The notes under the pieces were generated by a model, which was not told the DNA's origin, did not search any database, and was given only the letters and a program-made list of their open reading frames with translations. Both the position numbers and the translations under genes were made by a program. DNA of 64,000 nt from Morchella semilibera (lineage: Eukaryota; Ascomycota; Pezizomycetes; Pezizales; Morchellaceae). Position 1 is the stretch's first letter; every line of letters starts with the position of its first letter. Shown here one piece after another: positions 1,909 through 64,000 of this stretch. The DNA lies in the NCBI GenBank assembly GCA_009192285.1, contig CM018604.1:5241746-5305745 (forward strand). Reading direction: 5' to 3'.

Positions 1909-2856
1909 GATTTTGCGGGTGGGACGAATATGATGTGGGGTAGTGTAGTAGTGTAGTGTAGTGTTAGTATGAAGTAGGTTGTTAGTTGGGGTTGTGTGAA
2001 CGAAAAAGAGTCAGAGCCAGATTGTGTGTGAGAGAAAAAAAAAAGCTAGTCCAGACCCTGAGGCTTGGCAGGTCGCGCTAGAAGTGACCATCGCATCGGG
2101 TTTCGATGCTAGCTTGGCAACGGTAGGATTGTGGGACTCTTCCCAGGGTACCTCTCGTGTATTGACACATTTTTAACCTACTGTATATCTGATACGTGGG
2201 GAAGTTATGTAGAAGGGTATAAGATTAAAAAATACTTATATATTGAGGTGCAACTCTCGTTATATGTCGACAAGTGAGGTTAAAATATAAATATGTAATC
2301 ACTTCCCTATTTTGTATCATACATGTATGTACTCTAAGTCAAGGGCGCCAATTACACGCCTGAGCTACTCTGGTAGGCTAGCTACAGTTATATTTTGCAA
2401 TCTGACCAACCAATCTAGCATGTTTTCATAGTACTGAAACCACTACAAAGTATGTTTCGCTCCAGCACAGAGTTGAAGTTGATATGTTTCTCTGCTACTC
2501 GCTCTAAAGTTTAGATCGGATGCGTGAACCGTTACACGACTGCCACAAATTACATGTAGCCTAGGGTGGAGTAAATCATGCAGGAATCATGCATATCCAG
2601 GAAAGAAGAAACGATCCCTTCCTCCCCACCTATAACCGAAAACTTCGAATTTTTGAAACCGCAAACCTCCAGCAGTATCCAAACACTGAATGCCAACCGT
2701 AGAACCACGTTTCTGACAGCCGCACCCCTACATACGTACCTGCCTAACCGTGGAGTCCAAGCCCTCACCCCATAGATACTTAAAGACCAGCCTGCTCACC
2801 TTGCAAACAAACAAACCCTTCCTTTTTTTTTTTTTTTTAAAAAAAAAAGAGGAAAA
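1909..2856. other. Intergenic region, EMG1 promoter side and 5' of the small membrane protein gene
   Basis: This is a divergent promoter region for EMG1 (minus) and the gene at 2857 (plus). It contains a TACATGTA palindrome at 2551 and a T-run followed by an A-run at about 2822-2848, immediately upstream of the ATG at 2857. No coding segment is supported. Confidence 0.5.
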
Positions 2857-3438
2857 ATGGCAACCTCATCATTACCAGGCAAGCCCCCTAACCTCAAACC
2901 TGCAAACCAGAAGCCCTTAAATACACTTTGTTTATTCTGTCTCTCCCCGGCCTCCCGCTCCCCCTCGGCCTCGCGCCGTCCCTCCACCGTAGCCACCTCC
3001 ACCACCACCAGGGTAGTGAGCATAGCTAACCCACCGCCCCGGTCCCGGGCCCGTCTATTCATAGCCCCAACACCACTAAATATATACCTCGGGTTCACAT
3101 CCCTAGTCTCTGCTGCGTCCTCCCTCTTATATCTGACCTCGCCGTCAGCATCGCTCGCAAGGCTTGGGGGTACGCCGTCCCCAAGTGCACTGGTTCTGGT
3201 GCAAGTGGTGGCTTCAGGCGAGGCCCTAGTGTCATACCTGTGTCTAGAAGGGCTATTCTCGAAAATACCCGAGAGTCGGAGATTAGTTGTAAGGGCCATT
3301 GGAGTATATAATCTGTTCCATATGGGCGCGTTTTGGTGGGGACACAAAAGGCATGTGAGGAACCCGAGAGGAGCGGGGATGTTGGCGATGGGGTTGGCAG
3401 TGGGGACTATCACAAGTTTGTGGTACGGGGTATTTTAG
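2857..3438 (+). CDS. Small multi-pass membrane protein of unknown function
   Basis: A 193-aa single-exon ORF. Residues 1-70 are Ser/Pro/Arg-rich and poor in acidic residues, which would fit a mitochondrial presequence. From about residue 70 there are roughly four hydrophobic segments (starting near LNIYLGFTSLVSAASSLLYL, LVLVQVVASGEALVSYLCL, AIGVYNLFHMGAFWW and GMLAMGLAVGTITSLWYG). The pattern 'YNLFHMGAFWWGHKRHVRNP' looks like a conserved loop flanked by helices. I do not recognise the family. The overlapping 205-aa frame on the other strand lacks such structure. The start is chosen at the first ATG after the A-run. The inference is that this is a real gene, probably an organellar or endomembrane protein. 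Confidence 0.55.
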   Translation: MATSSLPGKPPNLKPANQKPLNTLCLFCLSPASRSPSASRRPSTVATSTTTRVVSIANPPPRSRARLFIAPTPLNIYLGFTSLVSAASSLLYLTSPSASLARLGGTPSPSALVLVQVVASGEALVSYLCLEGLFSKIPESRRLVVRAIGVYNLFHMGAFWWGHKRHVRNPRGAGMLAMGLAVGTITSLWYGVF

Positions 3439-3987
3439 GCCTCGGTGAAGCGGGTGTGTAGGATTGGGTTTGTTTATATGGGCGGGCTGCATTAGTTTAT
3501 AAGGACACTCGCTGGATCATTTCTTATCACTCGTCGCTCGGTTAGACTAGTTATGCCACTCCAAGTTATGATTTATTTTCTCCTGGATTAATCACTTCTA
3601 GAAAGCCCAAATGGTACTACATGTAGCTAATACTATCATTGCCAATAGCATAAGCCGGCATATTAACTTAAAACGTAATACAGCCAGTGCACAAAAAAAC
3701 GCAAAGCATAACCCAGATAGCCACCCCAGCATCAAGTTACAAACTCGCCTCCCAGTCTTTATCAAAATTTTCCCATCCTCATTAGCTCCTGAAGAAACTC
3801 CTGAACCTGGATAGAAATTATAGATATACTTAAAACGGAAAGAAATAAAAAAAGGGAAAAACAAAAAAAAAGAAAAAGAAAAAGAGAGAAAGCAGTCTCA
3901 AAAGACAACACGCCAAAAACACCAAATAGAAACGTTATCCCGAAAATCCTTTATTTTCCCAATCCCATCTACAAGAATAAAGTTTCC
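3439..3987. other. Intergenic / 3' regions between the membrane protein gene and TRA1
   Basis: A convergent intergenic stretch with a TACATGTA palindrome at 3618 and an A-rich run at about 3839-3900. No coding exon is supported. Confidence 0.5.
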
Positions 3988-15900: not shown

Positions 15901-16045
15901 CTGTAGCTTGAGTTTGACATCTATTATTCTCAATTTCATTAGCCATCACACACCGCTTTCCATCATCTACGGCGCACAACAGACCTAGAGTGCTGTCCCC
16001 TAGCCTCGCAGCATAAACGTCTGCATGGGGTGTGCCCCCAGCCAT
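3988..16045 (-). CDS. TRA1: TRA1, PIKK-family pseudokinase scaffold of SAGA and NuA4
   Basis: A complete gene of 14 exons encoding 3787 aa (yeast Tra1: 3744). Exons: 16045..15985, 15920..15760, 15702..15031, 14982..14726, 14671..14472, 14419..14171, 14115..10589, 10543..6185, 6135..5922, 5866..5613, 5561..5256, 5199..4693, 4641..4312, 4254..3988. Reading frame is kept across all 13 introns (45-64 bp). HEAT repeats fill most of exons 3-8 and the FAT domain lies near residues 2500-3200. The PI3K-like domain begins around PGQYLL (about residue 3417) with [20 protein letters not shown] ends ..[12 protein letters not shown]. The kinase core reads [12 protein letters not shown] where active kinases carry catalytic motifs, so it is a pseudokinase, as in all Tra1/TRRAP. 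It binds activators and recruits SAGA or NuA4 histone acetyltransferases in the nucleus. Intron 6 (14170..14116) starts GCAAGT: a GC-AG intron. Confidence 0.97.
5867..5921 (-). other. TRA1 intron 9 with a C15 tract
   Basis: A 55-bp intron (GTGGGT...TAAG) whose coding strand has an uninterrupted run of 15 C (5899-5913, read as G on the + strand). It splits the poorly conserved Pro/Ser-rich linker of TRA1. The splice choice is inferred from frame: A|GT joins to give N-S-A-G-S-P. Confidence 0.7.
14116..14170 (-). other. GC-AG intron in TRA1 (intron 6)
   Basis: The exon end reads TCAG and the intron begins GCAAGT and ends TTTCAG. Only this junction continues the frame from ..DPVS into DNKFLFKN. 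No GT donor nearby keeps the frame. GCAAGT is the usual 5' site of the minor GC-AG class spliced by the U2 spliceosome. Confidence 0.8.
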
Positions 16046-16574
16046 GGTTGTGGATCCTCTTTTCAATACCCAAAGTTTCTAATCTTCTACCGCAAAAAAT
16101 AGCGCGCCGTTCCTGGTTAATATGAGTTTGTGGAGACGAAATGGCTCACACTGCAGAACGCGAGTTTTTCTTCTTGCTTCTTGATGCAAAATCTCGCTGA
16201 GGAGGTCGTTAAGGGTTGGGTGCCTGACAAGCGATCACGGTATAGGAGAAAGGGAAATGGAAGCCTGGAGCCTTCTTGTACCCTGCGTACAGTACGCGAA
16301 CTATATAAACCTAGAGACACTTGTCTTGGCGCGCGCGCAGTACCTCCTAGCGGTCATGTGATATCAAAAAAATTATTGGTTCACCCACTCTACCGGGCCA
16401 GGAAGTACAATTTTATAACTGGCAAAAAGAAACCCACCTCTATGCACATGTTTTCAACTTTGCTTTGTTACTCCGAAAAGATGTTCGCTATGCCACTTTT
16501 GAACAGGCTGCCAGCAGGAGCGCAGAGTGCAACTGGAAGAAATTGAGTACACTCATCTTGAGTTAACTTAGGAC

Positions 16575-16697
16575 GGGTGTACCGGTGTGGGTGTTGAGGG
16601 TAAATACGAAGAATCTGATAAGAGAATCGTGCCGTGAAATAGGTGTGTTTATCTTATCAGATTCTCGGTATTTATGGTTAACCCCCCGGTACACTCT
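16575..16697. repeat. Imperfect inverted repeat (~123 bp fold-back)
   Basis: The left arm begins GGTGTACCGG and runs to GAATCTGATAAG. The right arm is its imperfect reverse complement (CTTATCAGATTC ... CCGGTACAC). The two innermost 12-bp blocks pair perfectly around a spacer of about 30 bp. It resembles a short fold-back/MITE-like element. No target duplication could be identified. Confidence 0.65.
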
Positions 16698-16834
16698 CGG
16701 CGCTTCAATAGCGTGCATGGTTTGATGCATCGACGGCAGCCGCACTAGTACGTATGAACTCTGCAGATCTGCTTGAGATCAATATTCTTTGTGAAATAAA
16801 TTCTTATTGTTGAGTTTGATTTTACAAGCCGCTT

Positions 16835-17226
16835 GTATGGTGCGGCGCGTCTTAAAGGTGACATGCCGGCATTTCAGCTGGAACAATCTTGGCCACTCCA
16901 ATTGGCTCTTGAGCCAATTGAAGCCTTATATTCCAGCCATATTATGGCTGAGAACTAAATCTTGGCTGCAGGTCTGTGGTGTAGGGGTATAAATGGGTAT
17001 AATACTGTTCCACTTCACCAGGTCTTGGCGCTTTCTACATACAAAAACAGGCAAATTCAATCTCTAATAACTTTTTAACAAGGGAAAATATCAAAAATCT
17101 GTCTGATAGAAGTATTCACCATTACTAGACCTACACTTCTGTCAGACAGATTTTGAATATCATGTCTTGATAAAAAGTTATTAGCAACGGAATTTGCTGT
17201 CACCTTTAAGATGCGCCGCACCATAC
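16835..17226. repeat. 392-bp fold-back element with ~28-bp terminal inverted repeats and a nested inner hairpin
   Basis: The ends are GTATGGTGCGGCGCGTCTTA at 16835 and the complement TAAGATGCGCCGCACCATAC ending at 17226; the outer arms pair over about 28 bp with one mismatch. A second, longer inverted repeat sits inside: 17051-17113 pairs imperfectly with 17134-17197 around a 20-bp loop. There is no ORF of a transposase. It is probably a non-autonomous DNA element, possibly one inserted in or grown from another. Confidence 0.7.
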
Positions 17227-17336: not shown

Positions 17337-18689
17337 AATATATACACTCTAATTTTTCTGTGTGGAATATAGAACCTCCGTTAACAGCTTAAGTTCACAA
17401 ATCAAACCTAAGCCGATATGGTCAGAGGTTTTGCGGTCAAAAGGCAGAGTTGAATTCGACTCACGGCCTTGGGGTCCTTCTTTGGGAACCAATCATGAGT
17501 ACGTACCGGCTACAAGGATCAAATACAACCACCCACCAGTCGAGCACGCCAGTACCTCTACTCAGTATAGCTATAGTCGTGGGCGCTAATGAACCGAATT
17601 AACTCAGTAAAGAAAACATCTTATTAGCGAATTGCACAAGCGTGGCCATTGCATGTGCGAAGGAGGTTCTCTTCGCACCTGAGTTGGATTTATTCTAAAG
17701 CAAATCACCCCCAATCACTCGGCTTCACACGTGGTATCATAAATTCTTCATAATTGTGCTTCTCAAAAGTTGAAGACACACGTATTTCCAACAACCTTCT
17801 CCCCTATCAGCTTGACGAAGAGCTAAACAATTCAAGGATAGAAGGGTAACAGAAGCTTAGGTACAACATGCCAGTCAAACCCCAGAGGATAAAAGTAGTA
17901 TCGAGGAGTCGGCAATTACATGTAAAGATATCCGCTCTTTCAACACTGAGGCCGTATGATTAGTCAACTCTCCAATCTTGCGTTTAATCGGCGAAGTAAT
18001 ACGTTTCAATCTAATCCTAGTACTCCCCCCATATCCTTTAGGCACAAATTCCTGCCATAGGGTTACCAACTCCCTCTAGGGGCATTTGTTATCTCCCACA
18101 GCATGCAAAGCCATGCAGGACAAGATACAACCGGACTAAACACTGGTTCTACATGGTAGGTTTTCTGCAAAGGACTGCATGTATCATGCTAGTAACGCAA
18201 AACTGACGACATATTAGGGTAGGTGAAAGAAATTGTAAAACTACATGTATATTATCCGGCCCACAGAAAAGGGGACCCGTGTACAATGCGTAAGAAAAGT
18301 TAAATGCACATAGCTCCTCACCGAGACGATCGAAGCATCAATAAGTCGATCCGTAGAAATAGGATCTAGAATCTAGGAGTAAATGTATGCCATAATGCAT
18401 GACAATTCAAGATTTGACTGATCAATTCATTAAATCACAATTCAACATTACACATTACATATATCGTATTATATATCACTCATGATTATACTCTACCAAC
18501 AACCGCCACGATTCCGGCGGGTCGCAGTTGGGACTGATACTGGTCATGGTCATATATTAAACGCTTTGAGTACTCAGCATATAAGATATAGACACGCACT
18601 ATCAATCCGCAGGTGATAAAGGGCTTAAGCCTCCCGATAAGATGATATGTAAAGTGCCAGCTAGACCCCCATTCCATGCATCATGTACA

Positions 18690-18741: not shown

Positions 18742-19779
18742 CGTTTATAAGTACTTAATGCATGCATACCTAGGGTGTCGGGAAGTGATGCACGTAAGTT
18801 CGGCCATATATTAACCATGGCCACCAGAGGGTTACCAGCCGCACAAAGCTAATTGTTTAGAGATTAATATGTGTTATGAGCGTCTAGATTCTTGTTATGA
18901 CCATGAAACGAAAAAGAACCTGCGATCAATTCTTTTCCACTTTACCACCCGTTTTTGCTATCTTTATCAAGTGACGTGACTTCTTTCCTACTAGCGAGTA
19001 TATATTTTGTATACCTAGGGACGTGCACGCACTTACATAGACAACTGCAGAGGGAGAATATATCAAGCAATTATTTTGTGTTGAGGTATTTTAGTATGTC
19101 TAGGCTTTGCCAATTGCAAGTCAAAATGTGCATCACCTTTAAACACCTTTTAAACATCAAGTATGTAAGTACATGTATATATGTAATCACCCAGAAACCC
19201 TAAATTTGAAGCTTGCGCCATATAAGAAGCCTGGTTTGGCTATCGTAATGAGGGCATATCTAATACAGTGGAGTCTCGATATTAGCATATGGTCGGGAAC
19301 GGCCCTGAGTGGCTGCAAAGATCTAGCTTAATTAACCAGCGACTACTACTAATTCCATGACGTTTCCGAACTCGACTGCTATTGCATATACAGAAAAAAC
19401 TGCTAAGTCCCCTCTTTTGTATCCTATGTAATATTGCATGGTCGTCTTCGGAAACATCATGGGGGGACGAGTACACACCAAGTTTATTTATGTCGTGGGC
19501 CTAAAAAGCAGTTAGTCTCGGTACCTTTTGCGGCATGATGAATAACTACATGTATGCAATAGGCTTACCAATATCATCCCTATGTGTTATTAATTAAGGT
19601 AAGAGAGATGTTATAATATCGACTGCGCACGATGCACTGCGCACGATTTGCTTTTTTGTTTCTTGTTTAATTCGTTACTCGATCGTATTGCGCATGATTT
19701 GCCTCTGCGCACTCACTAACTGCTCATGCGCGTTAATGCACGTTCTTGATCATGCAAGAAATATTGTGGTCAGTATGTG

Positions 19780-19860: not shown

Positions 19861-21664
19861 TTCTTATATCTGAAATATAGCTCACGAGACTACCGCTTAT
19901 AAATAGCTTTAAGACTTCGGACTATCTGGGCCTGTCAGCTGATCGGCTTTCACAAACAGGCTAGAGGATCAAGTGCCGGTTTATAATTTAGGGTGGTGGA
20001 GGACTCCAAGATCTGAGGGGAAGAGGTCACAAGTGGTGGGTTATATATGGACTAAAGCGGCGAACTAAATTTCATATTTTACCAACATGTCTTTAGAAAG
20101 TCTATCATACCCACAAATTGGTCCTAATAGGGGTATTAAATTAACTAGTCGTCTATTTCGTGGGCTGGGTGTTTCGCCTATCGGATATAAGTGGCACTGG
20201 TGCACTAAATTAATCATAATCATGACCAGAAGACTTTAAGCTTTTAATTACTTCATAAGCATGCACGCACGGCAGATATTAAGAATTTATCTAGAGAAAA
20301 GCCGAATAATTCAATACAGAAACCTTTCTCTAAGCAGATCTCTAGTATCAATTGTGCTTGAAAAATTATTGAAGACTTAGGGCCCGTTCGGACAGTCTGA
20401 TAATCGTGGTTATTGACAATAATCTGATGGATTATAAGGTTTTGGATTATTGTAATGAGTGGAGGTGGGGAAATGAATAATCTAAATTTTTAACTTTTGC
20501 TTATCCAAATAATCTGCAAATAATATAATTACTTAGTCCAGAGGTGATTATTTGTTTATATCTCTTTCTTTCCTTCATCTACACCAATTGCCTCATTAGT
20601 ACATGTAATGACCAATATATTGATGCCAGGAAATTTGCTGCAGATCGCCTTTGCGGTTGAACAATACTAGACTTTATGTCGAGATTTAAATATCATGTGA
20701 AACTCTGTATTAACGGGTCAATTTTATATGGACGAGCTTCGATCTCAACTGTGACGATCCTGGTGTAACGGGGTTACATACACCTAATACATAAGACTAT
20801 TAAAAAAATTTATACGGGCCGCTCCCGTGAATAACCACCAGGCTCACTTGATTGGCCGGTCTGTGAGGTAGCGGTAGTTCGGAGGTCAGCCGACGGGCAC
20901 TCCCGAATACCAGCAAGCCCCTAGTAGTTGTTCTTGACTGGGTTGCGTCTTGCTGCACCTGGGCGCAGCAGGCGCACCGCGTACCAGACGCAACTTTTGG
21001 ACCAAAACAATTGCTTACCTATAGAAAACCGCCCCAGACGCAGCAATTCGTCTTCTGACCAAAAGTCTTCTGACCAAAAGTCTTCTTTAGCCAGGCTAGC
21101 GGTCATGGTAGAACCCGGACACCTTTCCACTAGTAAAATGATGTCACGTTGATATCTGGATAGTTTAGGTGGCAAACGGCATCAGAGGCGAGGAAGCCCA
21201 GGGAGTACCGGTACAGGGAGGAACCTCGCCTCTGTAGAGGATGTATCTTTCGTGGAGCTCCCCGAGAAAATCTGTAAAAGCCTCTGCTCCACGAGCAAAT
21301 TTGTAAATAAGTGGAAGCCTTCCCGTGGATATTCTGAAGGTGCTCAAACTTGAAGCCTTGGAGATAATTACAGATTTTGCATAGAAAGGGCTCACGACAA
21401 CTCTGTAGAAACCCTCTGGGGGATCTATAGACCACATTTGAATTTGAACGCCTAGAAGCCTTCAAAAATATCCACGAGAAGGCTTCCGGTCTCTCCTCTA
21501 GGAGCAAATTTGTAAAAAGCCTCTCCTCTGCGAACCAACTTAGACTTTACACGTCCTTATCCTGCCGAATATCCTCCACACATTGGAGTACTAAACTTAA
21601 AGTTGTCTTGAACCAGACGTTGGGTTGGGTGGTTTTGGTTAATTATTAAATTATAAACTTGGCG

Positions 21665-21736: not shown

Positions 21737-22490
21737 ACCTGGCTCCCAATTGTTCTCAATTTTTATTTAGCAACGACACTAAACCCGATCAGGACTGGTT
21801 CGAGACAAGATCTTCCAAGAGAATGCATATAAGGACTACGTATTGTATGCACACGGATGTGCTGAATTCCAGCGTGTTATACCACCGGTTGTAAACCATT
21901 TGTAAAATTACTTTTGACACATTTACTCCACCATATACTATAACCACAAGAAACTGCAACATCTCACAAAATGTCCACATCCTAATTCACTGGGCTAGAG
22001 GCGGTCCTAGGCAAATCTAAAAACAATAGTGTCCCGAGTACATAAACCATTATCCAAGGCATATTGGGTCTCAGGATAGAAAGCCTATGGCCATGCGCGT
22101 TGTATATTTGGCTTCTCAAATGATGACGAGTCCGAATAGCCTTGAGATCTCCTGTCCGTTTGTGTGTCAATACCTGTCATTATACCTGTCCAGCTCAATC
22201 GATCCGCGGCTATATGATAAAATAAATAGTAATTGAATCTTCAATTAATGATCTATTCTACGTAAGTACATGTACTTGCCGATTCCTCTCCCCCGTGTCC
22301 ATCCAACCTATTCTTCCTGACATGTGAATGTCGAGCCACATTATATCAATAATTCCTCAATTCATAAAATTTTAGGGCCGGCCGTTACCTTGTGTGTGAA
22401 AGTGTAGCGCTCACTACATGTATTTAAGAGTACATATACTTATACTTTTCAACACCCCAGTACTGTAGACAGCGCCGGTCGTGGTTGCAA

Positions 22491-22515: not shown

Positions 22516-23626
22516 CTGCAGTTTACGCTACGAGTGATTTCCCATGACGAGCACCTAGTTGATGAAATCAACTCTCGTTATATATATGTATATATATAGT
22601 GATACTACTGTATAATGTAGTTACATGTATAATCTCACTATTAGGGTAGGAACGCGTACATGGTAAAATTTTACTTGTCTCTCGTGCGATCGCTCCTTAC
22701 ATATATATTGTACTTATAAGGATACAGATTTTCGACCCTGATCAAATCGACTGTCCGTATTCCATTTCTCTATATACGAAACGAGCTCACCGAGTTTCCT
22801 GGTGCCTCGGTTCCCTCATGGCTAGACTTTTGTTTCTCATTAAGACGAAATTCTCTAAATTGTGAAGGTGATCAAGGGTCTTTGACTATATATATGCTAT
22901 AGTAACAAAAGTGTGGATTTCTATATTCTGGTCAATGCCCTAGCTATGTAATAATACAACGTTTCTAATATCGGTTTAGCTTAGCATTCTTAACTAAAAG
23001 AGATATTTAAATTAATATATGTTAAGAATTTCTAAGGACGTACGTACGTCAACCCGTTCAATACTTGTCTAGGATTTCTAGGCTAGTCAACCCGCGGGGG
23101 AAAGTCACTGCACAGGGCGCCCAGTTCGTGAACTGAATCAACATTCCGCCTATCGGGCGGTCGGGATATAGAAGCTTTGGCAGTTCCTGGTGGTAGAAGT
23201 TGTATGAGAATACCATATAAAACTAGAAACCCTTGAAAGACTACCTTGAAAAAAGTCATCACACACACCTTGAAAGTAGGCTTCAAACCCTAGAATTCCC
23301 TGAGCTCCGGACCATCTTGAGATAATTTCTAATATCATTCTAAACTTAGCCGTAAAGGGTGTAATCTACCAATTAGTTAAGTCCTGATAAATGGTGACGT
23401 TGTGCAACTTAAAAAGACCATAACAAATTATAGAGAAAACCACAAGGAAGATGGGGCAACTCGTATCCTGGCTAGATGTTATCTATTAGGTTCGCATCGT
23501 CTCTATAATGAATTTGGTAGTCTTTGCGACGTTGCGTTGCGTTTGAGTATTGCTGGCCCAGGTGTCATTTCTAGATCTCAGGACTTAATTAACGTTATCA
23601 CGCGCGAGTACAGAATATGTTGATTA

Positions 23627-25670: not shown

Positions 25671-26596
25671 GGTAGTCTATTGAGCTTTATCGCAAAGATT
25701 CTGAATTGCGCAATTGCCAAGGTTTGTTGCAAAGCCGAACAATATTAATGGTGTTGAAGGTTGGTAGAGAGGGAGAGGGACGGGTACAAATATAAAGTTG
25801 AACTATGCGAATTATAAAGTGGACAGAATGAGTTGGCTATCAATGCTGCGAGTAGGTAATGTATCATGAGTGAGTCGCCCTTTCCTCAGCCCAATCATCC
25901 CATTCATTGATGACACAACTCGATCCGAGTAGCGTTAGCGTTCTGCTGAGCTTTGGGATTTGCTTTATTCAAAAGGGGTTAGGACCTATCATGTTACCCG
26001 GCGTCTTCAGAGAGTCCGCACGGTTGCTGCACTAGACTAGCAAGTATAAACGATGCACCTGACTTTTGAGCTGGTGATATGCCCGATGATAACCGCAATT
26101 GATTACGCCAATTAGAATTGGTACGGTATCAAGAAATACCTACACTGCTCTGCAGCTGCGGGAGAGAAAGCTAGCTGGCGCCATAGGGACTCATGGGGCC
26201 GGAACAATCCATTGCAATTGATATGATCCCGCAGTAGATAGTAAAATTGGAACTTGGAATACTTTTAGTATCGGCATTGTAGTACTAGCAGGATTTATAA
26301 TTTAAACTCCTAAAAATACACAGACGTCTTGATGGCCATATTGAAACGGTGGAAACGCATCCGTGAGGGCAGAATTAGAGGGGGATACATGGACCTATGA
26401 TACTAATTGTTTTCTGTGATAGAAATAGCCTCCTAGTCCCCGTATAATAACTATAACTGAAAAGTTATACTTTAGACGTCGCCTGAACTCCGATTTCCTA
26501 GTTGTCTACTTTATACAGGTATGTAGTTCACCTATCTGGATGCAACTTCTCTATGTATTGGTACCAGTACCATGGTGGCTACATGTAACCATAAAT

Positions 26597-26682: not shown

Positions 26683-26866
26683 CCATTCGAATTCCAGTTC
26701 AATTTTCAGCAGCACCAGGCCTGTACTTTTGGGAGTGGAAGTACATGTACTGAGTACACTTGTTAAGGTTATTCTTATAGCGCCGAGCGAATCAGGGGTG
26801 CTGTTGATGCGCGGGTGCGCGCGGATGCGCGTCGGCATGCAGGTCATCCTTGAACTTTGAAGCGAA

Positions 26867-27138: not shown

Positions 27139-27825
27139 GGTACATGTATGTACCTTCATGTACCTTACATGTACTCTATATATCATGTGCCTTTAAATTT
27201 CTGCTGGGGGCTTTATCCAATATAAATGTTCTACTAGATTCGCTCCATCTACAAAGCAAAATCTAAAACTCATGAGCATGGATAAGACCTTATTCGTTCG
27301 GTATCGAATTATCCCCATTCCTAAGAGCAACGTGGCAGCCTGCTATCATGTCTTAAATAAGGTGACGAGCTCCATAGGAACACGAGGTTTAACCCGGGTT
27401 AATACCCTCTTTAACTATATGTCCTCGGGGGTCCTCAAAGTGATGCAACGGCGACAACCCCAACTTTGCAGCTACTGGCCATCATACCCAAAGTTGGAAA
27501 ATAATTTATATAGATCGAATTATATTAGGCGGAGTTATACAATTAATAGTACATGAAAACAAAAATGAAAAGAGTACTGAGCTCGTTGCATCACTTTATA
27601 TTTAAGGGCCAGGGTACATATGGTTTTGTTAAGCTATAAGGCGCTTTTTCAACCTTCGAATGGGCAACACATCAAGTATATGATGTATATTAGACTATAA
27701 TAGTAACATATCTCCGACCGGGGGTTATCGGTTTAACGATTGGTTGAACGGTGTAGAGTAGATCTTGTCTGCTAATACATTACATGTATGTAGTAATTTT
27801 GATCTCATATGCTGCACAGTGTCGC

Positions 27826-27993: not shown

Positions 27994-29145
27994 GTAAGTA
28001 CATGTATGTACTTATATGTATGTGTAACAATGCTAATACTTGTTAATTTGAGGGTGCAAAATTATCAGAGCCGACGTAAACCTCACTCAACAAAGGTAAA
28101 TACTATGAGGATTTTTGGAATGTCTCTAGCTCTGGAGTCATAGTTTATCCGGTGTGATAGGCGCGGGTGCGTGATGACCTGCCTGTCGGTGAGGTTCTTC
28201 CAAGGCGGTTTCCCGATCTCGATAATTACTGCCTAGAGTACTTCCCGCGAGAATAAGTCCCCGACATCACTTTTGTGTAGCAACCTCATAATTTGGCAGA
28301 AACTTATTCTCAACGCAAGTATACTTTATATGGATTTCTTAAATTGGAACGATACAAGTATCAACCAGGATTGTGAAGCATGCATACATACACCCTTCCC
28401 TATAACAAGGGTTATATATTATCCTAAATGTTATCCTAGAAGCAGAGCACCATATAGGAAGTACAGCAATAGCTGGGTATAGAGGGGTATCTCATTGTCA
28501 CTGTCACGTATAAGAACTACATGTAGTCGGCATATTGGCAAAACATAGATTAGAGTATGTACCCGCGAGTACTGACAATTATAGGTTGGTGTAAGTACTT
28601 GTTAGAAAGGCTAAAAAAGAAAAACCGTTAATAATACCCTAATAGATCTGTATTAGGGCCTGTTAGGCAGCCCGGTAGTATAGGAATACGTATACGGTAC
28701 TGGTACAGTACTCTTCCTCCAATGCCGGTTTAATTCGGTATTCACTATATTCCGTAGTCCTATTTCAGTGGTTTCACCCAGTTTCTTCATCCTATATATC
28801 TATACATATAGTCATTATATCGATCCATGTTCTAGACTAAAAATCTGGACAATTTCCTTGTTAAGAGAATAAAAGAATAAACAAGAACATGTATTCACAA
28901 CCACATGCGCATACATGTATCTATATATTATAATCATAGTGTCGTTATAATTAACATAAATTTATCCCATCCCTTCTCTGGTTGAATGGTGAATTCGCAC
29001 TATCAGCTAGGGAGGAGATCGAGAGGGGGAAAGGGACCGCGCGCACTCTTTGCTTTGTCGCGATGGTTAGCTCACCTGTCCTAGAAAGTACTGTACGGTA
29101 TATTGTCGTTGTATCGCTTACTAGTACCGGCCCCCGGGGATAAAT

Positions 29146-29273
29146 CTACTCGCGACAGGCAACAAGTACCCGAAAATGTAGCTGCACTGCATTGGTGTAT
29201 TTCCCTCTTTTAACCCAATGAGAATCTCACTCCAAGACTTGCATATTCGGGTACCTCTTAACTGCCGCGAGTA
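29146..29273 (-). mobile_element. 128-bp TIR element, copy B (inverted)
   Basis: The reverse complement of copy A over the full 128 bp. I count about five substitutions (nearly all C/T or G/A transitions) and one single-base indel. Its right edge runs straight into TACATGTA (29272-29279). Confidence 0.8.
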
Positions 29274-29712
29274 CATGTAGGTACATACATGTATGTCATG
29301 TACCTACCTGTCAGCTACCGCCATCTTTGCAATTATGGCTATTCAGAACATCTGCCTTCAGGGACTGAAAAAAACACCCCGCCCTCAAATTTGAGACACC
29401 GCACCGAAATACACTAAACTAACAACCGATTCCTGCATGACCCCGCAACCCACAACCGCGGGCCCTTCCAGATGTTCCGCCGGCAGAATTAAAACACCGC
29501 AGAAACGTCAAAAAGGCTAAAATGGGGCACATCTAGCTGCAATGCGCAGTGGGGTAATGTGCTGCATTTTCCCGATGATCGATGGACTTGTAGAGTTTGA
29601 TGTTTAAATAAAGAGCGATTGAGCGGAGAACCTACATTTTTGAATTGGGTATTGACACTTGTGCTGTTTGTCCTCAGATATACAACAAATCATACCAAAT
29701 TGTCATAGCAAT

Positions 29713-32284: not shown

Positions 32285-33114
32285 TTTTCGCTCAATTTTG
32301 TTAAACCTGGAAACGGAGCGACCATGTAAGTGCATGTACGTACTGGTTACATGTATTCACAATACTATAGCAGTTCTGGGAAAATTATATATCAATATCA
32401 ATTAGAATATGAACTGGAACCTATATCAATCAATCTCAAGCAAATTGAATGTTCATGTGGTAAGGCAATACATTTGATTATGGATACATGCAACTATAGC
32501 TACATGTAACTTTGCAGTTGCACTCTCCCGCTAGGTACGAGCGTGGATAATACATGTATGGAAGGGTCATAGAATCGCACTCGCCTGATCCCGCTGTCAA
32601 TTTTGATACGGCACTTAATAATGAATTCCTATTGCCTCTACTCTTACGTAATTGTTCTATGCGAAATTCGAACTTTTCAGTACTGCGAAAGATCAAGGGA
32701 AAAAAACATGTAAGAGTTATCAATCACTACAAGAGAAAGGGAGGTGTTTCTAGGAGTGGATATGTAGGTACCTGCATGATCGCGCATTCAGAAAAGAGTA
32801 TGTAGTGATCACCAAGTTTGTTGACCAGCCACTCCTTTAAGATCTAAACTCAGTTGAGATGTTCCACATCCCAAAAAAAATTCCACCCCTCCATGTCTTG
32901 GCAACTGTCTACCCCACCACAACCACATTCCCTCAACTTTCCCTCCAATTCTCCGACTCTCTCCACAGGCGGTTAAAAAAGCGTTCCTGCTCTACGGAAA
33001 TTCTCACTCCTGATCGCAGCTTTGGTAAACTTAAGCCCTAACTTTAATTTTTCTCCTAATACGCTTCGCTGACAGGCAAACCAAGTTCCTACAAAAAAAA
33101 CCTACTCCAAAAAG
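32285..33114. other. Intergenic region, alpha-xylosidase 3' side to SPE3 promoter
   Basis: It holds three TACATGTA palindromes (32348, 32501, 32551). The 32,860-33,110 part is pyrimidine-rich with an A-run, as expected for a strong fungal promoter/5' UTR. No gene is supported. Confidence 0.5.
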
Positions 33115-36337: not shown

Positions 36338-37179
36338 CGTGGAGCAGATAGAGATCTGATATATGGTTCCAAAAATCGTTAAACGCTCGCAACCAGCAAC
36401 CGACATACAGACGATGGTTTAGGCTGCGTGACTATATGTAAGTATCTCAGCCGGCACTTGCTTGATGTTGATTTAAGGGTGGTTACACAAACGTTTGAAC
36501 AGGTGGAACCACAGCATGCTTGTGATACCACAGTGTGTCTGGCAAATCATATTCCCGGCTTGAATTGTGAGTAAGCCTACACGTACTCTAGACTCAGTAC
36601 TCTAGAGTACCTGCCTGCATGTACTCATGTACCTACATGTAAATGTAAATGTCCAGGAAGTGTTAACGGTCCGTTTGGGGGAGAGCCACATTTTGACTGA
36701 ATTTCTCGATTGAGTCACAAGGACTAATCTGGTCCTTGTCTGGTTTCAATTCTGCAGCAATTTCTGCTTTGCAGGGTCTTGACTGTTGGGTAAAAGATGT
36801 GGTCGCCAGGAATAGATTAGTGAGAATGTCAATCACAGTTCTCAAGCCTTTTATCCTGTCTCTGCTCAGCCCTCCTAAATTTATCGTTGGCAGCAGTAGG
36901 TGCTTCTTCGGCACTTAGCCAATGAAAACTCGTGCAACGCAGAATAAAAGGATGTCTGCGCGAGGCTGAAATTTGTACATAGAATTGGCTCTGTGTCTCA
37001 TGAACCCGTCCCCAGGATCTGGGGAAATCATACATATACCCACGTTTTCCGACATTTTCCTAGAGTTTGATACTAACGCGGTAACTCCAGCGAGCTTTTC
37101 AACTCGGTCAGATTGTTTGGGTCGGCTAAATTTTGATCTAGTCAGCAAACATTAGCAAACGGCGCACTGGTGGGTGCAG
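36338..37179. other. Intergenic region between the DUF6594 gene and the 12-exon gene (divergent)
   Basis: It holds one TACATGTA at 36634 and repeated ACTCTAG/GTACTC blocks near 36,585-36,625. ORFs of 60-83 aa around 36,660-37,155 overlap each other on both strands, and I cannot support any. An upstream exon of the 37,180 gene cannot be excluded. Confidence 0.45.
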
Positions 37180-39166: not shown

Positions 39167-40112
39167 CTGCCCAGCTAAGAATGTAGTATTGTAATTACTA
39201 AGTCGTCAAAACATGCAGGTCATCGTATAAATATTTTCTTGGGAAAGGGGTGTTTTTAGAGTTACACGACATTGAACTAAATTCCCCTATGTATTATCTT
39301 TGTTTATATTTTGGCGTTTGAGTGGTTTGGGAAAGGAATTTAAAATTAGATTTGTTTTAATTATTATATTCATTTCATTTGAGCTGTAAAACCAAGTCCT
39401 AGCGCCACGAACTCTGTTCGAGTGATAAAACATGACTTCTGCCAAACAGATACATAACCAAGGCATCCTTGACATTTTAAAACAGGCAAAAAGCTTGTGC
39501 TTTGTAACACGCTAAGGTGGTTTTTGTTTCCAGGGGTGCTTGATCCCTACCGGTCAAAACAAAACGATAACTCTGACAGGCCTTGCGCTTATTAATTTTT
39601 TGTTTGAGATCCGATTTGGGCCCCCAACAGCCATTGCCACTTTATCAAACATAGCACGTGATACTGTAGGCGCATAAACCCGCGTCAAGTAGTGTTAAGA
39701 TACATGTAGTAGGTATGCTGTTTGCCCACCAGAACGATCCCTGCAACTAGTAATTTTGGCCAGGGTTGGTGTCTCGAGTCTACACCAACCCATATGGTCA
39801 CAGTGCGTGGTAGAGTACCTACTCTGCCCTAGAGTACTTAGGGTAGAGTACTCCAGATACTGGTAACTAGCCTGCAGGGAACAGCACGCAACCGCCCATG
39901 GTTCTTGTGTCATCGTATCTCACACAGGCAGCACCGCACGTGCATATCAAGTCCATCGTGAATTGGTTGAAATATATAACGTTCACCATAAAGATGGGGA
40001 AGAGTGATTTTTGATCCTCAAGCTCCTTCTGAGCCACCCTTTCTATTCTCGCAGGCCCCATCACACGGATCAAAAATTAAAAGGGAAAGAAAAAAAAAAG
40101 AAAGAAAAAAAG
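39167..40112. other. Intergenic region upstream of the DUF202 gene
   Basis: One TACATGTA lies at 39701, with GAGTACTC-like palindromes near 39,811-39,852. An A-rich purine tract runs up to the ATG at 40113. No coding exon is supported. Confidence 0.5.
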
Positions 40113-41007
40113 ATGTCGCCCAACGAATTCTCCAAGGATAGCTCGGCTGACGAAACTACTTCTATGACTGGCGCAGGGTCCCGAGAGGTACCAAACTATG
40201 CGAGTACTGCGACAAGAGGGGAAATGAGCAAGAAACAAAATAAACACTCGGATCGAGATACACCAGAGCCGGAGCCGGGGAAGAGGGGATGGTTCTGGAG
40301 ATTGAGAGCTGTTGAGTTGGAGAATGTGGGCTCTACAGCGAGAGATCATCTAGCTCTGGGTGGGTACATGTAGTTACTTGCCTTGCTAGATACTTGTTGG
40401 TGATGTGATACGTTACTGATTTGGGTCGTACTTTATTAGAACGGACCTTCCTGGCGTGGCTAAGGACATCGCTTGCGTTTGCATCAATAGGTAATTATCA
40501 AACAACCACTATCTATTCGTAGGCTTATCTATATCTAATCAATCATATAGGCGTCGGGATATCACAACTCTTCCGTCTAAATGCTGCTGTACAGTCCTCT
40601 GATCTTTCTGGTAGCTATGCCTTTGTTTTATAGATTCTCACCATATCTAATAATAAGTAGATAGCGTAACCACCCTTCGCCACTTGGGTAAGCCCCTCGG
40701 GATAACCTTTCTTGCAACAGCGATTGCTGTGCTCTTGATCGGTGTACATAGGTTCGTGACAACTCCGATCCAATCGTATAGTATTAACATGGATATCTAG
40801 GTACTTTGAATCGCAGGGTTGGTTATTGAGGGGGAAGTTCCCGGCGAGCAGAGGAAGTGTTTACTTCCTAACTGTGGTTGTGGCTTTGGTATGCATAGAA
40901 CGCACTCTATTGACCGCTAATCATGCCTTACTGACTGGACGTATCTCAATTATTAGTTAATAACCGTAAGTTTGATTGTCGTACTAGCAGTTCAACCCTC
41001 AAACTAG
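40113..41007 (+). CDS. DUF202 (YidH-like) membrane protein
   Basis: Six exons: 40113..40359, 40440..40490, 40551..40610, 40661..40751, 40801..40888, 40957..41007, giving 195 aa in a continuous frame. The N-terminal 70 residues are polar, and then comes the DUF202 signature ARDHLALERTFLAWLRTSLA with FASIGVGISQLFRL. Two further helices follow (GITFLATAIAVLLIGVHRYF and SVYFLTVVVALLITVSLIVV). Fungal members are small three-helix membrane proteins reported at the vacuole or plasma membrane. Biochemical function is unknown. Intron 1 contains TACATGTA at 40365. Confidence 0.88.
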
Positions 41008-45893: not shown

Positions 45894-46262
45894 ATGAAGA
45901 GGGGTTTTCAGGTGCTGGATCCCTTTACGAGCCAAGGGGGCTGTTGAGTTCACTGTGTGTACATGTAGTAGTTGGATGTAGGTTTTGCCCTAATGCTAAA
46001 TAGGTGCCTTCTAGGGGCCTTCCATAAGATCGCTCTCCTTTAGGCCCAGGCAAAGCTTCTATCTGAATTCCCTTCTGACTCGTCTTGCCAGGTCGTCCTT
46101 GTTGAGCAGGGGCACGACGGGTTCAACCTCCTCTCCATCTACACAAACCCCAATTGTACATACTCCTATTACCGGCAGCCAGGGTGGCCGGAGAGGTACA
46201 TCAAGGCGGGGAGGATAGGGTATATTAACGTTCCGCTCCCGATTGGAGTTTTGACTGGGTAA
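45894..46262 (+). CDS. Possible small two-exon gene, unknown (77 aa)
   Basis: A 219-nt open segment, 46044..46262, reads AQAKLLSEFPSDSSCQVVLV, EQGHDGFNLLSIYTNPNCTY and ends PLPIGVLTG. It has coding-like composition and codon use and is preceded by a good acceptor CTCCTTTAG. An ATG at 45894 (MKRGFQ) followed by GTGCTG at 45909 would supply a phase-matched first exon, with a 135-bp intron. There is no signal peptide and no family I recognise. Alternatively it is the last exon of a decayed gene. Confidence 0.3.
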
Positions 46263-49111: not shown

Positions 49112-50465
49112 TGTGCTGGTGGGATTGTTGTTGGGGAGTTACGGATTTTGGGGGCTCTGAGTTTGGGAGGGAAAAAAATATTTGTGGGCCCCCATCTACG
49201 GCCGGGTAACTGGTGCTGTGTTGCCAAGATCTTGAGGCCGAGTGAGCATTGGTGATCAGGCCTGTACTACTTGGGGCCCGGGAAGTTATTGGAGAGAGTT
49301 TATATTCGAATTATGTAGTGGACTGGCGCATCCCCAAAGTTGCATTATAGCTAGCTAGAGCTACATAGGTTCTAAAGTTAACCTCATTTCGACCGCTCTC
49401 CCGCAACCCTGATCTGGCGCATGTCACCGGCCATATGCATGCCCCCTAGCTCCCTCCAAAATCAAACAAATAACCCCCATATGATCTCACCTCCTACATA
49501 AAAAGAACAAAGAATCGGCGTTCTTTCTTGGTAGACATTCGGGCTACCTTGTCTTGTATTGTACTCTACCCCTCTATCCTACGCGTCGAGTATATACGTA
49601 TTTCCCACGGCTCATCTAGTGGGGGTGGGGAGAACCCTTCCAAAACAAAAGACTCACTTACACCCTCTATCGTGCCCTGGGGCCACCTCACAGCTATATG
49701 TAGGCCCTTTCCTGGCAAGCAGCATACAGCCTGCCCTACGGGATGGACATGGGGCTACATGTAATGTATGCAATCCTGCTGGCAAGTATCTCAAGTGCTA
49801 GTATATATAATACATTTAGGTTTTGGTGGTGCCCCGGACCCTAGTGTACCCATAGCTTTCCGGCGAAGACCCGCCCCCATCTCACTACCATGTGTGTGTA
49901 TAGCCTACATGTACTATCCGTGGTCGAGCTCGCAGATACATGTACTGATACAAGCTGGGGGGTTGTCTAAACTCGGTGAAATACAGTAGCTCGGAGGGTG
50001 GATATATGTGAATTTGGTGCCTCCATGTAACCACATACATGTAGGGCCCCTATATGGACACAGATTGTCATATCTGTGCCACTAGCGAGTGGTATAGGTC
50101 TTAATAACCGCGTATAGCCCTTCCTATTCTAATTAACAATATCCTTTACGTGCTTTGCCATATTGTATGGCCGAGTGATCTACCGTGACTCTCCGCGCTC
50201 CTCCGCTCCCACAATCAGTCCTTACCCGCGTAAAAGAGCATCAGGAAGACATATCATATGGGGGAGAGGGGGGTCTTTTGAACCTCAGAGTACTGCCATC
50301 ACCTGTACTCGGATTTTTATAAATACTTGCCCGTCAGTCATTACCACCGTTACTAATCCGCCAAGACACTCTACGCGAACGCCCAACCTCAGTTTCAGTT
50401 CGCGTCCGCCGGCAACAACTTGAACTCACTCACCGCACATCACCACCATCACCACCACCACCACA
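49112..50465. other. Divergent intergenic region DRS1 / RFC3
   Basis: Contains four TACATGTA palindromes (49756, 49906, 49937, 50036), the densest promoter cluster of this motif in the window. A (CAC)n-rich 5' leader (about 50,433-50,464) runs directly into the RFC3 ATG. No gene is supported. Confidence 0.5.
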
Positions 50466-51854: not shown

Positions 51855-53274
51855 ATGGTGGGTTCACGGGGTGATAAAATGCCGCGGGGAATCCATATAT
51901 ATATATATATAGTTAATGAATAAATGAATTGGTTGGACCAAAACTGTTAAATCTAAAATCGTGAGGCGCTAAATGGAGAGTAGAATACCAAGTATTAAAG
52001 GGAGAGGCCTAGGGGACCACCCCCCAAGTCCCTCCACCCCCACCAAACCTTGGCATACAAATTCACCGGCGAACCAAACAGCCAGTCCAAATTAACTACA
52101 TGTATGTAAATGTAGGCTACAGATCCGATTCAACCTGAAGATCCGGACAGGACAAGGCCTAGGGTGGTTTTCACGGGTGTCAGCTAGGGGTCCGGCTCTT
52201 ATTGCAACGGGTGGTCGGGGTCTAAAATAGACAAAAGTGCAGTCTCCAGCGCCGCGCCCCCCTTCAGCCTGAGCGGATCCATAACTCGATCGGGCCGATG
52301 GTAGCATAGTATCCGGGACCCACCAGGCCTGCTGCACATCTCTAAGAGCTATCGATCGTGTGGACGCTCACCACTTTTGCCCGTGGAAAACTCACCCACG
52401 CCCGATATAAGCCCGTAGGCCAACTCCCACGTAGGCGCCCCGGATAACAACCCCGGCCGGCCTCCTTCGGGGGCGTGATATGCTACAGTTATGTATTTCC
52501 CTGCCCACTACTTAATTGAGGCACTTCCCCTGGCTGGGCTTTCGTGCAGTATGGTGAGTTGAGCCCCGCGCCGTCCCGTCGCCGGGCGCCCTCACCGCTG
52601 CACTGCTCCTGCCCCGGTCTATAAGACCTACGTGTACCACCGCTACTATATTCTGAGCGCCAGTTACCAGTTAAAGTTCGGCCAGTGTTGTCGTGGGGTT
52701 TGCTATCGGGTCGCTGTTTCCGGCCCCATTAGGTCTAGAGACTATAACGTATAGGCTGAGAGATAATGTCTAGATCCCCCCGGGACTGTCCAGAGGATGC
52801 CAGACCCTGGGGTAGGGCTGAAAAGAATATAGAATTGAATATGCAGCGGGCACAGGAGCCCCGCGTCTTTAGACCCTGATTATTCTGTTATCGACACTTG
52901 CTAGAACTACGTCTACAAAATGGAGCTGGCTATGGCTAGCAGTGCGGGGCCTTTCACTACTACTTGTAAACTATACTTTATTGATCCTGCCTCGCCCGAG
53001 TACTGCTCGAAGACTTAGCCCATCTACTCCGGGTGTCACCACAAGCATAGAAAACTCTACCAACTGCGGCTGCATGTTTAGCCTAATCTGAAAATTCCCC
53101 ACAAACGATCATTCCCCCCGAGTGACACTCTGTGAGGATAAGAGCCGGGTAAGACACCCGGATAACGCCCTCGACCCACCGCCGCCCCACCAGAATATCT
53201 ACTTTAGGTAAATACATGTACTCTGCCTCCCACCCCAAACCCGCCGTACCAAAATTACACAAAACACACCCGCC
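51855..53274. other. Intergenic region RFC3 3' side to GPN2 promoter
   Basis: 1.4 kb of mixed composition. It starts with an (AT)n run (about 51,896-51,912) after RFC3 and has TACATGTA at 52097 and 53213. GC-rich patches near 52,400-52,640 have no coding pattern that I can support. Confidence 0.45.
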
Positions 53275-60457: not shown

Positions 60458-62023
60458 TCTGATACTGGAGGCCTCCCCTTATCGGCTGGAGAGCTTCTTG
60501 ATAGCATGCAGGTTTGATATAGCATGAGGTATTTATACTTACGCTATCTGGTCTTGAGGTCAAGGTCAGGGGCCTTGGCGCCCAGGCTTTATTATCCTGG
60601 TTTCCAGAATGCCGGCTGCATTACGGAATGCCGCTATTGAAGACACTTGTTAATACTTTGAGTAGGTACCTGACTCAATATCGATTTTTGTGGGTACAAA
60701 CGTATACGACTTGGGTTTGTAGATGGCAGCTGAAGCTTGCTCCAAGTACCGAGGTGAGTGTTCTGATAGCTCACTGACGAGGAAACGGGTCCCAAACCCC
60801 TTCTAGATATCGCCCTCTGTGTGTGGGGGGGTTAGAGAGAGAATAATCGTTAGGTCTGGATGCTATTAAAACCTTTCAGATTATCATTGACTATTGATGT
60901 CATGGTCCATCACTCGGGCTACGAGTGCCTTAGTGTGAAATGAAACAAGTGGCTGGACTAGGGACGGCACGAGCCGAAACTACATGTAAAGTAGGCAACC
61001 TGTGGTCTCGTACCCGTCCCCACGGTAGGAGGAGCCTACATGTAGGTACATACAATAATCTGTATAATCCTAGGCGTCGGGCTCACTAGCTCTGCCCTTA
61101 TCGTACTTGGGAGTTGTTTTGCTGTCTCGTCTCCGGCTTGACTAAGCCAAGATCCAGAGGATCAGCATAGCAGAGCCTCTCATAAGGTGAACTCACTCTC
61201 GCACAAGGAAACCCCAGGGCCTGTTTCGAATCGAAGAAACAAAGGTTTTCGCTCCTAAGATAGTTAATTAGTTAATTAGGCTACCCACTAGATTGTGCAA
61301 GACTACGGAATCCTTATCCCGAACGTTTGATGTTTGGTGTGTGTGTTGGGTCCGGGTGGTCACTTGCCGAGCATGATGTTTTCCAAACAGTAGTATCTAT
61401 CCAATCAGGCTTGGGTACTCGCAAAACCTTTCACGAGGGATCCCAGAGCCAGCTTCTCGAGCTTCATAACTGCTCGTCACTGTTTGAAAATGAGGGAAAA
61501 AAAAATTGATGAGCCCTAAATTCACCTGCAACTCCACCGAAACAGGATCCCTGCTAAGAAATGACGTCGCGCCGGTGTGTGTGTGTCAGTGTGACCTCCT
61601 AAGGGAAGGCGCCAGTCGAGCTCTGTGCAGATAAACAGCGAGTCTTCTCCTCTTCCCCACCAACCCAACACTAGTACTACTCTTGGTCTCTCTTCCTCCA
61701 GACTTCCTTCATCATCCACCCGTCAGTGCCGTCACTACTGGAAATTTCTAGTTTGATCTTGTTTGCCTAGCCTTTCTTTTCCGAATTAAACCAAACCCCT
61801 GCCCTGTTTTTTTAAAGCCGTATTCACGATGTTATCGATATCTCGACTCGTAGCACTTCGGATCCGCTTCGCTCGGGCAGTAAATACTCATTACATCTGC
61901 GACACCGTAGTAAGTACATGTATTCTCTCAAAATTATACACTACAAATGCCTGATAAGAAAAACCATTTGTTAATACTGACTACTCAAAGCCACTCCTCC
62001 ATCTCATCGTCTTCCTCACAGAA
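60458..62023. other. Intergenic region upstream of F-box/ankyrin and Mpv17-like genes
   Basis: Divergent. It has TACATGTA at 60981, 61037 and 61915. A GTAAGT donor at about 61,911 and a CTCACAG acceptor at 62,020 just before the Mpv17-like ATG suggest a 5'-UTR intron, preceded by an upstream ATG at 61829 that does not join in frame. No other gene is supported. Confidence 0.45.
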
Positions 62024-63409: not shown

Positions 63410-63705
63410 AACTATACTACTGTTCAAAGTCTCTATATATAATTAGCCGGGACGCACCCGCACCGTTAATCAGGTTTAGGACATCTTCTGCCTAGTGGTG
63501 GTGGCCGTAGCTACCGGCTCTTGTTCTAGCTGAGCTCTGAGCAGGCACGAATGTTAGACCATCTACCAATAAAGGGTTCTGGTAAAGTTCAATAGATCGG
63601 CCCCGGAACCGGTTCTGGGGTTAGTAATAAACAAAATAAACAAGTTGATCCGCAGAGACAGCAGCCCCAAGAGGTATTCTGGAAAGGTTAGAGGTTGGTA
63701 ACAAT

Positions 63706-63729
63706 GGGGAAGGGAGGGGAGGGGAGGGG
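63706..63729 (+). other. Potential G-quadruplex tract
   Basis: Five G-runs of 3-4 separated by one or two A (GGGGAAGGGAGGGGAGGGGA...), meeting the usual G4 pattern on the + strand. Intergenic; role unknown. Confidence 0.6.
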
Positions 63730-64000
63730 AAGAAAGGACTGACCCCCTATGATACTTGAGCAGCATCTATGATGAGATAGGGGTACAGTATGAAAGAACG
63801 GAGTGAAATCACATAGACTACGGAATTCAGTAACGAATACCGAATGAAACCGGCACCAGAGAAAGAGTAATGTACCAGTAACTATTCTTACCGCGTTGCT
63901 AACGTACTGGCGGGAATACCGTGGTGATCCCGTCCCTCTTTCTGGTACTGTAGTTGTAGCTAGCAGAGGATACATGTATACATGTAGTACGCAACAAGTG

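Follow-up and report, generated by a model that had tools for sequence, protein, structure and literature searches.

The stretch studied here, a window of 64,000 nucleotides (64 kb) from the fungus Morchella semilibera (contig CM018604.1 of assembly GCA_009192285.1), carries a TRA1 gene predicted in 12 exons (4651–16045, minus strand), for which structure matches to chains named Tra1 or transcription-associated protein 1 outrank those to TRRAP. When ten frames of the window were compared with Pfam, five passed the cut-off (molybdopterin oxidoreductase, GH31, spermidine synthase, RFC and ankyrin), two had matches below it only and three had no match. The RFC-like gene has four predicted exons, and the gene facing it across a divergent gap codes for a helicase that we take to be DRS1-like. 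Scattered through the window are 39 exact copies of the palindromic octamer TACATGTA, the subject of this work. An initial annotation, made from the sequence of the window, had listed 38 of these copies, all of them exact, and had missed one at 2320; it put the number expected in 64 kb at about one and the excess at about 30-fold, and proposed a DNA-binding-protein site, a nucleosome or origin element, or a spreading short repeat.

Our results confirm that the observation is real and genome-wide. A second-order Markov model of the window predicts 1.0 copy of TACATGTA and a first-order model 0.8; models of order 5–6 predict 16–32, and are no test because the octamer's own pieces are built into them. 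The genome searched (56.76 Mb, 23 contigs) holds 22,206 copies in 56,756,124 bases (0.39/kb), far above expectation, and 3,723 copies of the reversed control word ATGTACAT. For finer analysis we used a 244-kb sample, made of the window and 18 stretches of 10 kb (one a near-duplicate, one partly N), in whose non-coding DNA 86 octamers were observed against 2.9 expected, a 29-fold excess. Among all octamers in this sample TACATGTA has the top z score (87 observed, 3.7 expected, z 43), followed by two homopolymers (z 42 and 38) and then mainly by octamers that overlap TACATGTA or are built of trinucleotide repeats; no other palindromic octamer is comparable, the next one, TATATATA, reaching z 11. 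The window is richer than the other 18 independent stretches of 10 kb (39 in 64 kb versus 48 in 180 kb) and than the genome average. A 264-kb set, in which two loci beside the window were added to the sample, provided 94 independent octamers for the position counts.

Some contigs of the assembly copy each other: C9/C10 are duplicates, as are C12/C13 and C21/C22 judged by matching places. Within our loci, L015 and L016 are identical over 9,842 bp (offset 158 bp), and L028 and L029 over 9,952 bp (offset 48 bp). Absolute genome-wide counts are inflated for this reason, and ratios between them should be little affected. L016 and L029 were dropped from the position, repeat, masking and clean flank counts; the all-octamer ranking and the Markov comparison of neighbour words still include L016.

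The octamer is sharply defined. Its 24 one-letter neighbours total 38,153, and the 24 neighbours of the control word 41,979; that is, the neighbours show no excess against the control. The spacer is equally strict: when TACnnGTA was counted in non-coding DNA on both strands, the centre AT gave 172 counts and no other centre rose above 14.

Beyond the core, half-sites recur at a fixed distance. Of the 187 sides of the 94 independent sites, 32 have GTA at offset -5, and each other offset from -40 to -3 has it 2–10 times; the count at -5 is 35/190 when the duplicates are included together with four loci, L001–L004, that had been chosen for holding GTACATGTAC and that also enter the flank table. 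Genome-wide, a half-site at a gap of 2 (GTAnnTACATGTA) occurs on 6,917 of 44,412 sides (3,432 + 3,485; 15.6%), and at a gap of 3 (GTAnnnTACATGTA) on 1,123 (590 + 533; 2.5%). Pairs of whole octamers obey the same rule. Listing one pair per start position, we found 2,666 pairs with gaps of 0–30 genome-wide, against 129 for the control word; 606 have a gap of 2, which places their centres 10 bp apart, and the other gaps average about 69 each (among the 100 pairs listed, gap 2 occurs in 19 and every other gap in 7 or fewer). The spacing is thus 10 bp, one helical turn, per presumed dimer. GTAnnTAC occurs with many different centres, and in non-coding DNA its count exceeds expectation 2.9-fold (210 versus 72); once the exact octamers and the 6 bp around each are masked, 138 remain against 63 expected, both strands counted, a 2.2-fold excess. 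The phasing and the masking counts indicate an element made of a strict 8-bp core, to which further half-sites may be added with the same 2-bp spacing. Of the 39 window sites, 13 have such a half-site next to them, in one case to the left and to the right. Of the extended forms that the initial annotation had seen recurring, CATGTATGTAC proved to be a real extension, with the half-site TAC two bases off, and GTACATGTAC is hardly preferred (1,486 of 22,206, or 6.7%, versus about 5% from the flank G frequency of 41/188 sides). Overlapping hexamer runs also occur (TACATGTACATGTA); a microsatellite origin was rejected, since the gap-2 pairs and single half-sites are not derived from such runs.

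The octamers lie in unique intergenic DNA. Predicted exons of the 264-kb set hold one in 95.0 kb, where 61 would be expected, and predicted introns (median 65 bp) none in 10.4 kb, where 6.7 would be expected at the intergenic density. DNA repeated within the sample is free of octamers over 26.7 kb, where the density of unique intergenic DNA would give 18.4, or 13.6 when the comparison is restricted to the 19.7 kb outside predicted genes. The placement in intergenic DNA or introns given by the initial annotation is therefore right in its first half and, judged by these predicted introns, not in its second, and its statement that coding exons are free of the octamer needs a small correction: the predicted TRA1 gene indeed has none, but one of the 94 sampled octamers is in an exon that passes the 300-bp cut-off for coding length (in L010, a repeat-rich locus), and window site 40365 falls within the end of a weak 261-bp predicted exon (40113–40373) discarded by that cut-off.

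Within intergenic DNA the density follows gene orientation. Divergent gaps contain 22 octamers in 17.5 kb (1.25/kb), tandem gaps 27 in 42.4 kb (0.64/kb) and convergent gaps 9 in 30.4 kb (0.30/kb), the remaining 35 lying in 63.8 kb of locus edges. With sites treated as independent, the probability of a convergent count this low is 0.0017 and of a divergent count this high 0.0006, values that overstate the case because the sites cluster. Words matched in composition (1,097 of them) vary much less, their density per word and kb being 0.020 in divergent, 0.021 in tandem and 0.017 in convergent gaps. Ahead of predicted starts there are 2 sites in the 9.1 kb of the first 200 bp, 4 in 7.7 kb at 200–400 bp and 13 in 9.2 kb at 400–700 bp, and each bin further upstream has 0.8–1.7/kb. 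The gradient by gene orientation, on which a preference for DNA upstream of genes would rest, is clear at the level of sites and only a trend at the level of gaps. The densest cluster in the sample is in L021, with eleven octamers within 830 bp (693–1521), about 1.5–2.3 kb ahead of a predicted gene at 2995.

We propose, with a probability of roughly 0.64, that TACATGTA is the core site of a homodimeric sequence-specific DNA-binding protein and a very widespread cis-regulatory element. Among the candidates of the initial annotation a DNA-binding-protein site is the best supported, by the sharp palindrome, the phased half-sites, the orientation bias and the avoidance of coding DNA, introns and repeats, and it is from these features that we infer protein binding, a dimeric state and transcriptional regulation. 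Each subunit would read one half-site, TAC (or GTA as seen from the opposite strand), and within the core an AT spacer would hold the pair 2 bp apart. Another dimer may bind 10 bp, or one helical turn, away, or alternatively a single extra half-site may be used at the same 2-bp spacing, so that the full element would be an array of the form ..GTA-nn-TAC-AT-GTA-nn-TAC.. with alternating 5-bp steps. Such sites, found in unique intergenic DNA, preferentially in divergent gaps and at distances of about 400 bp or more upstream of the start codon, could act as promoter or chromatin-opening elements. A phased dimeric protein site in intergenic, mainly upstream, DNA is in our judgement the most likely description.

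Several observations weigh against this proposal. The gene models are those of our own simple spliced gene finder with its 300-bp cut-off. Gaps holding at least one site differ weakly among the classes (6/12 divergent, 12/30 tandem and 4/15 convergent), and when 44 gaps of the 244-kb set were permuted within length strata, P was 0.085 for the presence of a site and 0.006 for site density. One gap supplies 10 of the 22 divergent sites, and the convergent depletion was weakened, from 5 sites in 28.5 kb to 9 in 30.4 kb, when the two loci adjacent to the window were added. The upstream profile shows a gap near the start and no sharp peak, and the density is still high kilobases away. The one-letter neighbours show a similar gradient: per kb they number 1.43 in divergent, 0.83 in tandem and 0.46 in convergent gaps (octamer/neighbour ratios 0.88, 0.88 and 0.38), so part of the octamer gradient may be due to composition or to looser sites. 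Furthermore, when the 12 distinct neighbours were compared with the Markov expectation in the non-coding sample, transition neighbours were raised (64 versus 25) and transversion neighbours were not (51 versus 50); the largest contributor, TATATGTA, is close to TA-rich simple sequence. An excess of transitions only may therefore reflect slow decay of copies or looser sites; unprotected copies, as they decayed, would leave the same trace. Finally, 22,206 sites are many for one ordinary regulator.

A first alternative is that the copies of the octamer are scars of Tc1/mariner-type elements, inserted at TA and excised leaving TA-CATG-TA, thousands of times. In C. elegans the sequence taCATGta is described as a footprint seen rarely after Tc1 excision (PMC3520976, citing earlier work). 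Tc1-like elements are resident in this genome: counting duplicate contigs, DDE_3 has 69 matches at E <= 0.001, of which 57 exceed the family cut-off, and the ends of the elements inspected read TA-CAGC. A target preference for GTAnnTAnnTAC would mimic phased half-sites, and in two of the three elements whose ends were displayed (L025 and L028) GTA stands 2 bp before TA at both ends; the rise of neighbour words for transitions only would also suit decaying copies. It is the comparison of the flanks of 91 distinct ends that led us to rank this explanation lower. The pattern TA-CAGCGGTAGG, which marks the ends of one family, has 389 matches, and the 100 matches listed comprise these 91 ends, among which base -1 is G at 81 and base -2 is T at 61. 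With this preference for TG before TA, the common family would be expected to leave scars of the form (T)GTACATGTAC(A); among octamers, however, only 41 of 188 sides show G at -1, this one element family being the one compared. At 10 of the 91 ends listed the flank plus TA itself makes TACATGTA, that is, the octamer was already present where the element inserted; this is not far from the share of TACATGTAC among TGTAC sites (53/557), so octamers would be just one of the targets that these elements use. Tethering of the transposon to octamers was also considered and rejected, 10/91 being near the expectation from a TGTAC preference. Moreover, the sampled repeat DNA is empty of octamers, other scar forms (TACAGTA/TACTGTA and TACATA/TATGTA) are raised only 1.7-fold, and a family with the required GTAnnTAnnTAC preference is not established, flanks having been listed in number for one family only. 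The Tc1 footprint shares the letters of TACATGTA, but the flanks, repeat avoidance and phasing fit it poorly, and we regard an origin from excision as unlikely. Elements with TA-CAGCGGTAGG ends were noted at L028 5750–7433, L027 806–2489 and other places in the genome, and three pairs of facing ends about 100–115 bp apart look like miniature inverted-repeat transposable elements (MITEs).

A short repeat that was spread or kept by a mutational or repair process, and is functionless at most copies, would account for the homotypic clusters within 30 bp, for some of the hexamer overlap and for the excess of transition-type neighbours. However, the spreading repeat of the initial annotation finds little support here, as non-neighbouring sites (among 87) share only 16–36 bp including the octamer, without the common flanks of dispersed repeats or MITEs, and a copying process would not be expected to produce a 10-bp phase in which the spacer letters are free. 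Introns and repeats, which would be equally neutral ground for such a repeat, hold none in the sample, and we consider this explanation improbable, slightly more so than excision scars. To the same low degree we would credit a bound-protein site with a non-transcriptional role, in replication origins, nucleosome phasing or chromosome architecture. Such a role retains this share because it too is that of a bound-protein site: it would have the same anatomy, and 7 sites have no predicted gene start within 2.5 kb. The gradient from divergent through tandem to convergent gaps points instead to gene starts, although origins or open chromatin may sit there too. Least credible of all is an RNA-level signal for 3' end formation. 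UGUA is a known cleavage-factor element, and with TGTA on each strand of TACATGTA it could be read in both directions, but position speaks against a poly(A) signal: the convergent (3'–3') gaps have the lowest density of the three classes, and the first 200 bp past predicted coding ends are nearly empty (1 site in 9.7 kb). A dimeric protein-binding site thus remains the reading that we prefer.

The same octamer has been described in oomycetes. Motif-1 of Phytophthora is TACATGTA, located upstream of 12,070 Phytophthora genes and proposed as a homodimer site (PMC3520976), and M93, again TACATGTA, has 4,150 occurrences in P. infestans promoters and was linked to general growth (PMC3597505). The palindrome is identical and in large excess in both cases, Phytophthora being an oomycete and the present host a fungus. 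The accessible parts of these two papers (PMC3520976, PMC3597505) make no mention of phased half-sites, 10-bp arrays or a reader protein; within that compass, ours is a known kind of element met in a fungus, and its half-site grammar is seemingly undescribed for the Phytophthora motif. Our literature search, with most subscription papers outside its reach, found no report of TACATGTA as an abundant fungal element. In architecture the array resembles the heat-shock element, in which alternating nGAAn units, inverted trinucleotides at 5-bp steps, are read by a multimer; the letters differ and no relation is claimed. HIP1 of cyanobacteria is likewise one exact palindromic octamer in great excess throughout the genome, but it is also found within genes, whereas TACATGTA avoids coding DNA.

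As to possible readers, we know of no BEN proteins from fungi, no search aimed at them having been made in this genome. The BEN domain of NACC1 was crystallised on TTTACATGTAA (PMC11472053), and Irx (Iroquois) TALE homeodomain proteins are stated to prefer TACATGTA (PMC3520976). The Irx readers are animal proteins. In this genome PF00046 gave five matches, four of them distinct after the C9/C10 duplicate, and PF05920 (Homeobox_KN), searched exon by exon, gave one, in L023, which we take to be a fungal-type homeodomain. Its helix reads WFINARRR across an intron in our splice reading, with I, not A, before the invariant N. The recognition helix of Irx proteins has alanine at position 50; the sole TALE candidate found is without this Irx-type residue, and an Irx-like reader was rejected on the reading of this one helix.

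The sites of the window are collected in Table 1. The single-exon GH31 gene that borders the richest divergent gap (30383–32284, plus strand) has its best solved-structure matches among YicI alpha-glycosidases (803 bits), which we take to be of bacterial origin, and it was possibly acquired horizontally. In the same gap lies an inverted pair of 128-bp repeats (26868–26994 and 29146–29273, 96% identical); a relative in L017 (5314–5441) makes this a small dispersed repeat family, and the edge of the second copy touches the octamer at 29272. Two stretches of about 8 kb each, 16046–24166 and 34472–42272, have no predicted gene with >300 bp coding and contain 8 and 3 octamers, respectively.

Table 1. 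Copies of the octamer TACATGTA in the 64-kb window, with adjoining half-sites and gene context
Feature	Positions	Context	Basis
TACATGTA + TAC 2 bp right (TACATGTATGTAC)	2320..2327		exact match; absent from initial list
TACATGTA	2551..2558		exact match
TACATGTA	3618..3625		exact match
TACATGTA	17917..17924	gap upstream of TRA1	exact match, gene models
TACATGTA	18242..18249	gap upstream of TRA1	exact match, gene models
TACATGTA + GTA 2 bp left	19170..19177		exact match
TACATGTA	19547..19554		exact match
TACATGTA	20600..20607		exact match
TACATGTA + GTA 2 bp left	22267..22274		exact match
TACATGTA	22415..22422		exact match
TACATGTA + GTA 2 bp left	22622..22629		exact match
TACATGTA	26580..26587	molybdopterin oxidoreductase/GH31 divergent gap, first of 10	exact match, gene models
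TACATGTA	26742..26749	molybdopterin oxidoreductase/GH31 divergent gap	exact match
TACATGTA + TAC 2 bp right	27141..27148	molybdopterin oxidoreductase/GH31 divergent gap	exact match
TACATGTA	27166..27173	molybdopterin oxidoreductase/GH31 divergent gap	exact match
TACATGTA	27781..27788	molybdopterin oxidoreductase/GH31 divergent gap	exact match
TACATGTA + half-sites both sides (GTAAGTACATGTATGTAC)	27999..28006	molybdopterin oxidoreductase/GH31 divergent gap	exact match
TACATGTA	28518..28525	molybdopterin oxidoreductase/GH31 divergent gap	exact match
TACATGTA	28912..28919	molybdopterin oxidoreductase/GH31 divergent gap	exact match
TACATGTA + TAC 2 bp right	29272..29279	molybdopterin oxidoreductase/GH31 divergent gap	exact match
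TACATGTA + GTA 2 bp left	29286..29293	molybdopterin oxidoreductase/GH31 divergent gap	exact match
TACATGTA	32348..32355		exact match
TACATGTA	32501..32508		exact match
TACATGTA	32551..32558		exact match
TACATGTA + GTA 2 bp left	36634..36641	convergent gap	exact match, gene models
TACATGTA	39701..39708	convergent gap	exact match, gene models
TACATGTA + TAC 2 bp right	40365..40372	convergent gap under 300-bp cut-off	exact match
TACATGTA	45960..45967	convergent gap	exact match, gene models
TACATGTA	49756..49763	helicase (DRS1-like)/RFC-like divergent gap	exact match, gene models
TACATGTA	49906..49913	helicase (DRS1-like)/RFC-like divergent gap	exact match
TACATGTA	49937..49944	helicase (DRS1-like)/RFC-like divergent gap	exact match
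TACATGTA	50036..50043	helicase (DRS1-like)/RFC-like divergent gap	exact match
TACATGTA	52097..52104		exact match
TACATGTA + GTA 2 bp left	53213..53220		exact match
TACATGTA	60981..60988	divergent gap	exact match, gene models
TACATGTA + TAC 2 bp right	61037..61044	divergent gap	exact match, gene models
TACATGTA + GTA 2 bp left	61915..61922	divergent gap	exact match, gene models
TACATGTA	63971..63978	abuts copy at 63979	exact match
TACATGTA	63979..63986		exact match

What could be the role in vivo of such an element? A more far-reaching view, which we advance tentatively and hold to be doubtful, is that TACATGTA would be the address of a genome-wide regulatory or chromatin-organising factor of this fungal lineage, with about one exact site per gene (the 79 genes predicted in 244 kb extrapolate to about 18,000 genome-wide), helically phased dimers, an octamer shared with oomycetes, and a generality like that of Reb1, Abf1 and DREF, which are general factors in other organisms. 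The recurrence of the octamer in oomycetes raises the question of whether the same regulatory word was reached by two unrelated filamentous lineages. The TAC/GTA half-sites, the 2-bp spacers and the 10-bp steps provide the basis for a bait (TACATGTAnnTACATGTA) and its mutants, and promoter deletions and pull-downs would be suited to a direct test of protein binding. If TACATGTA is a protein site, one exact eight-base word would mark a large share of the intergenic regions of this fungus, and the factor that reads it would be a main organiser of its transcription.

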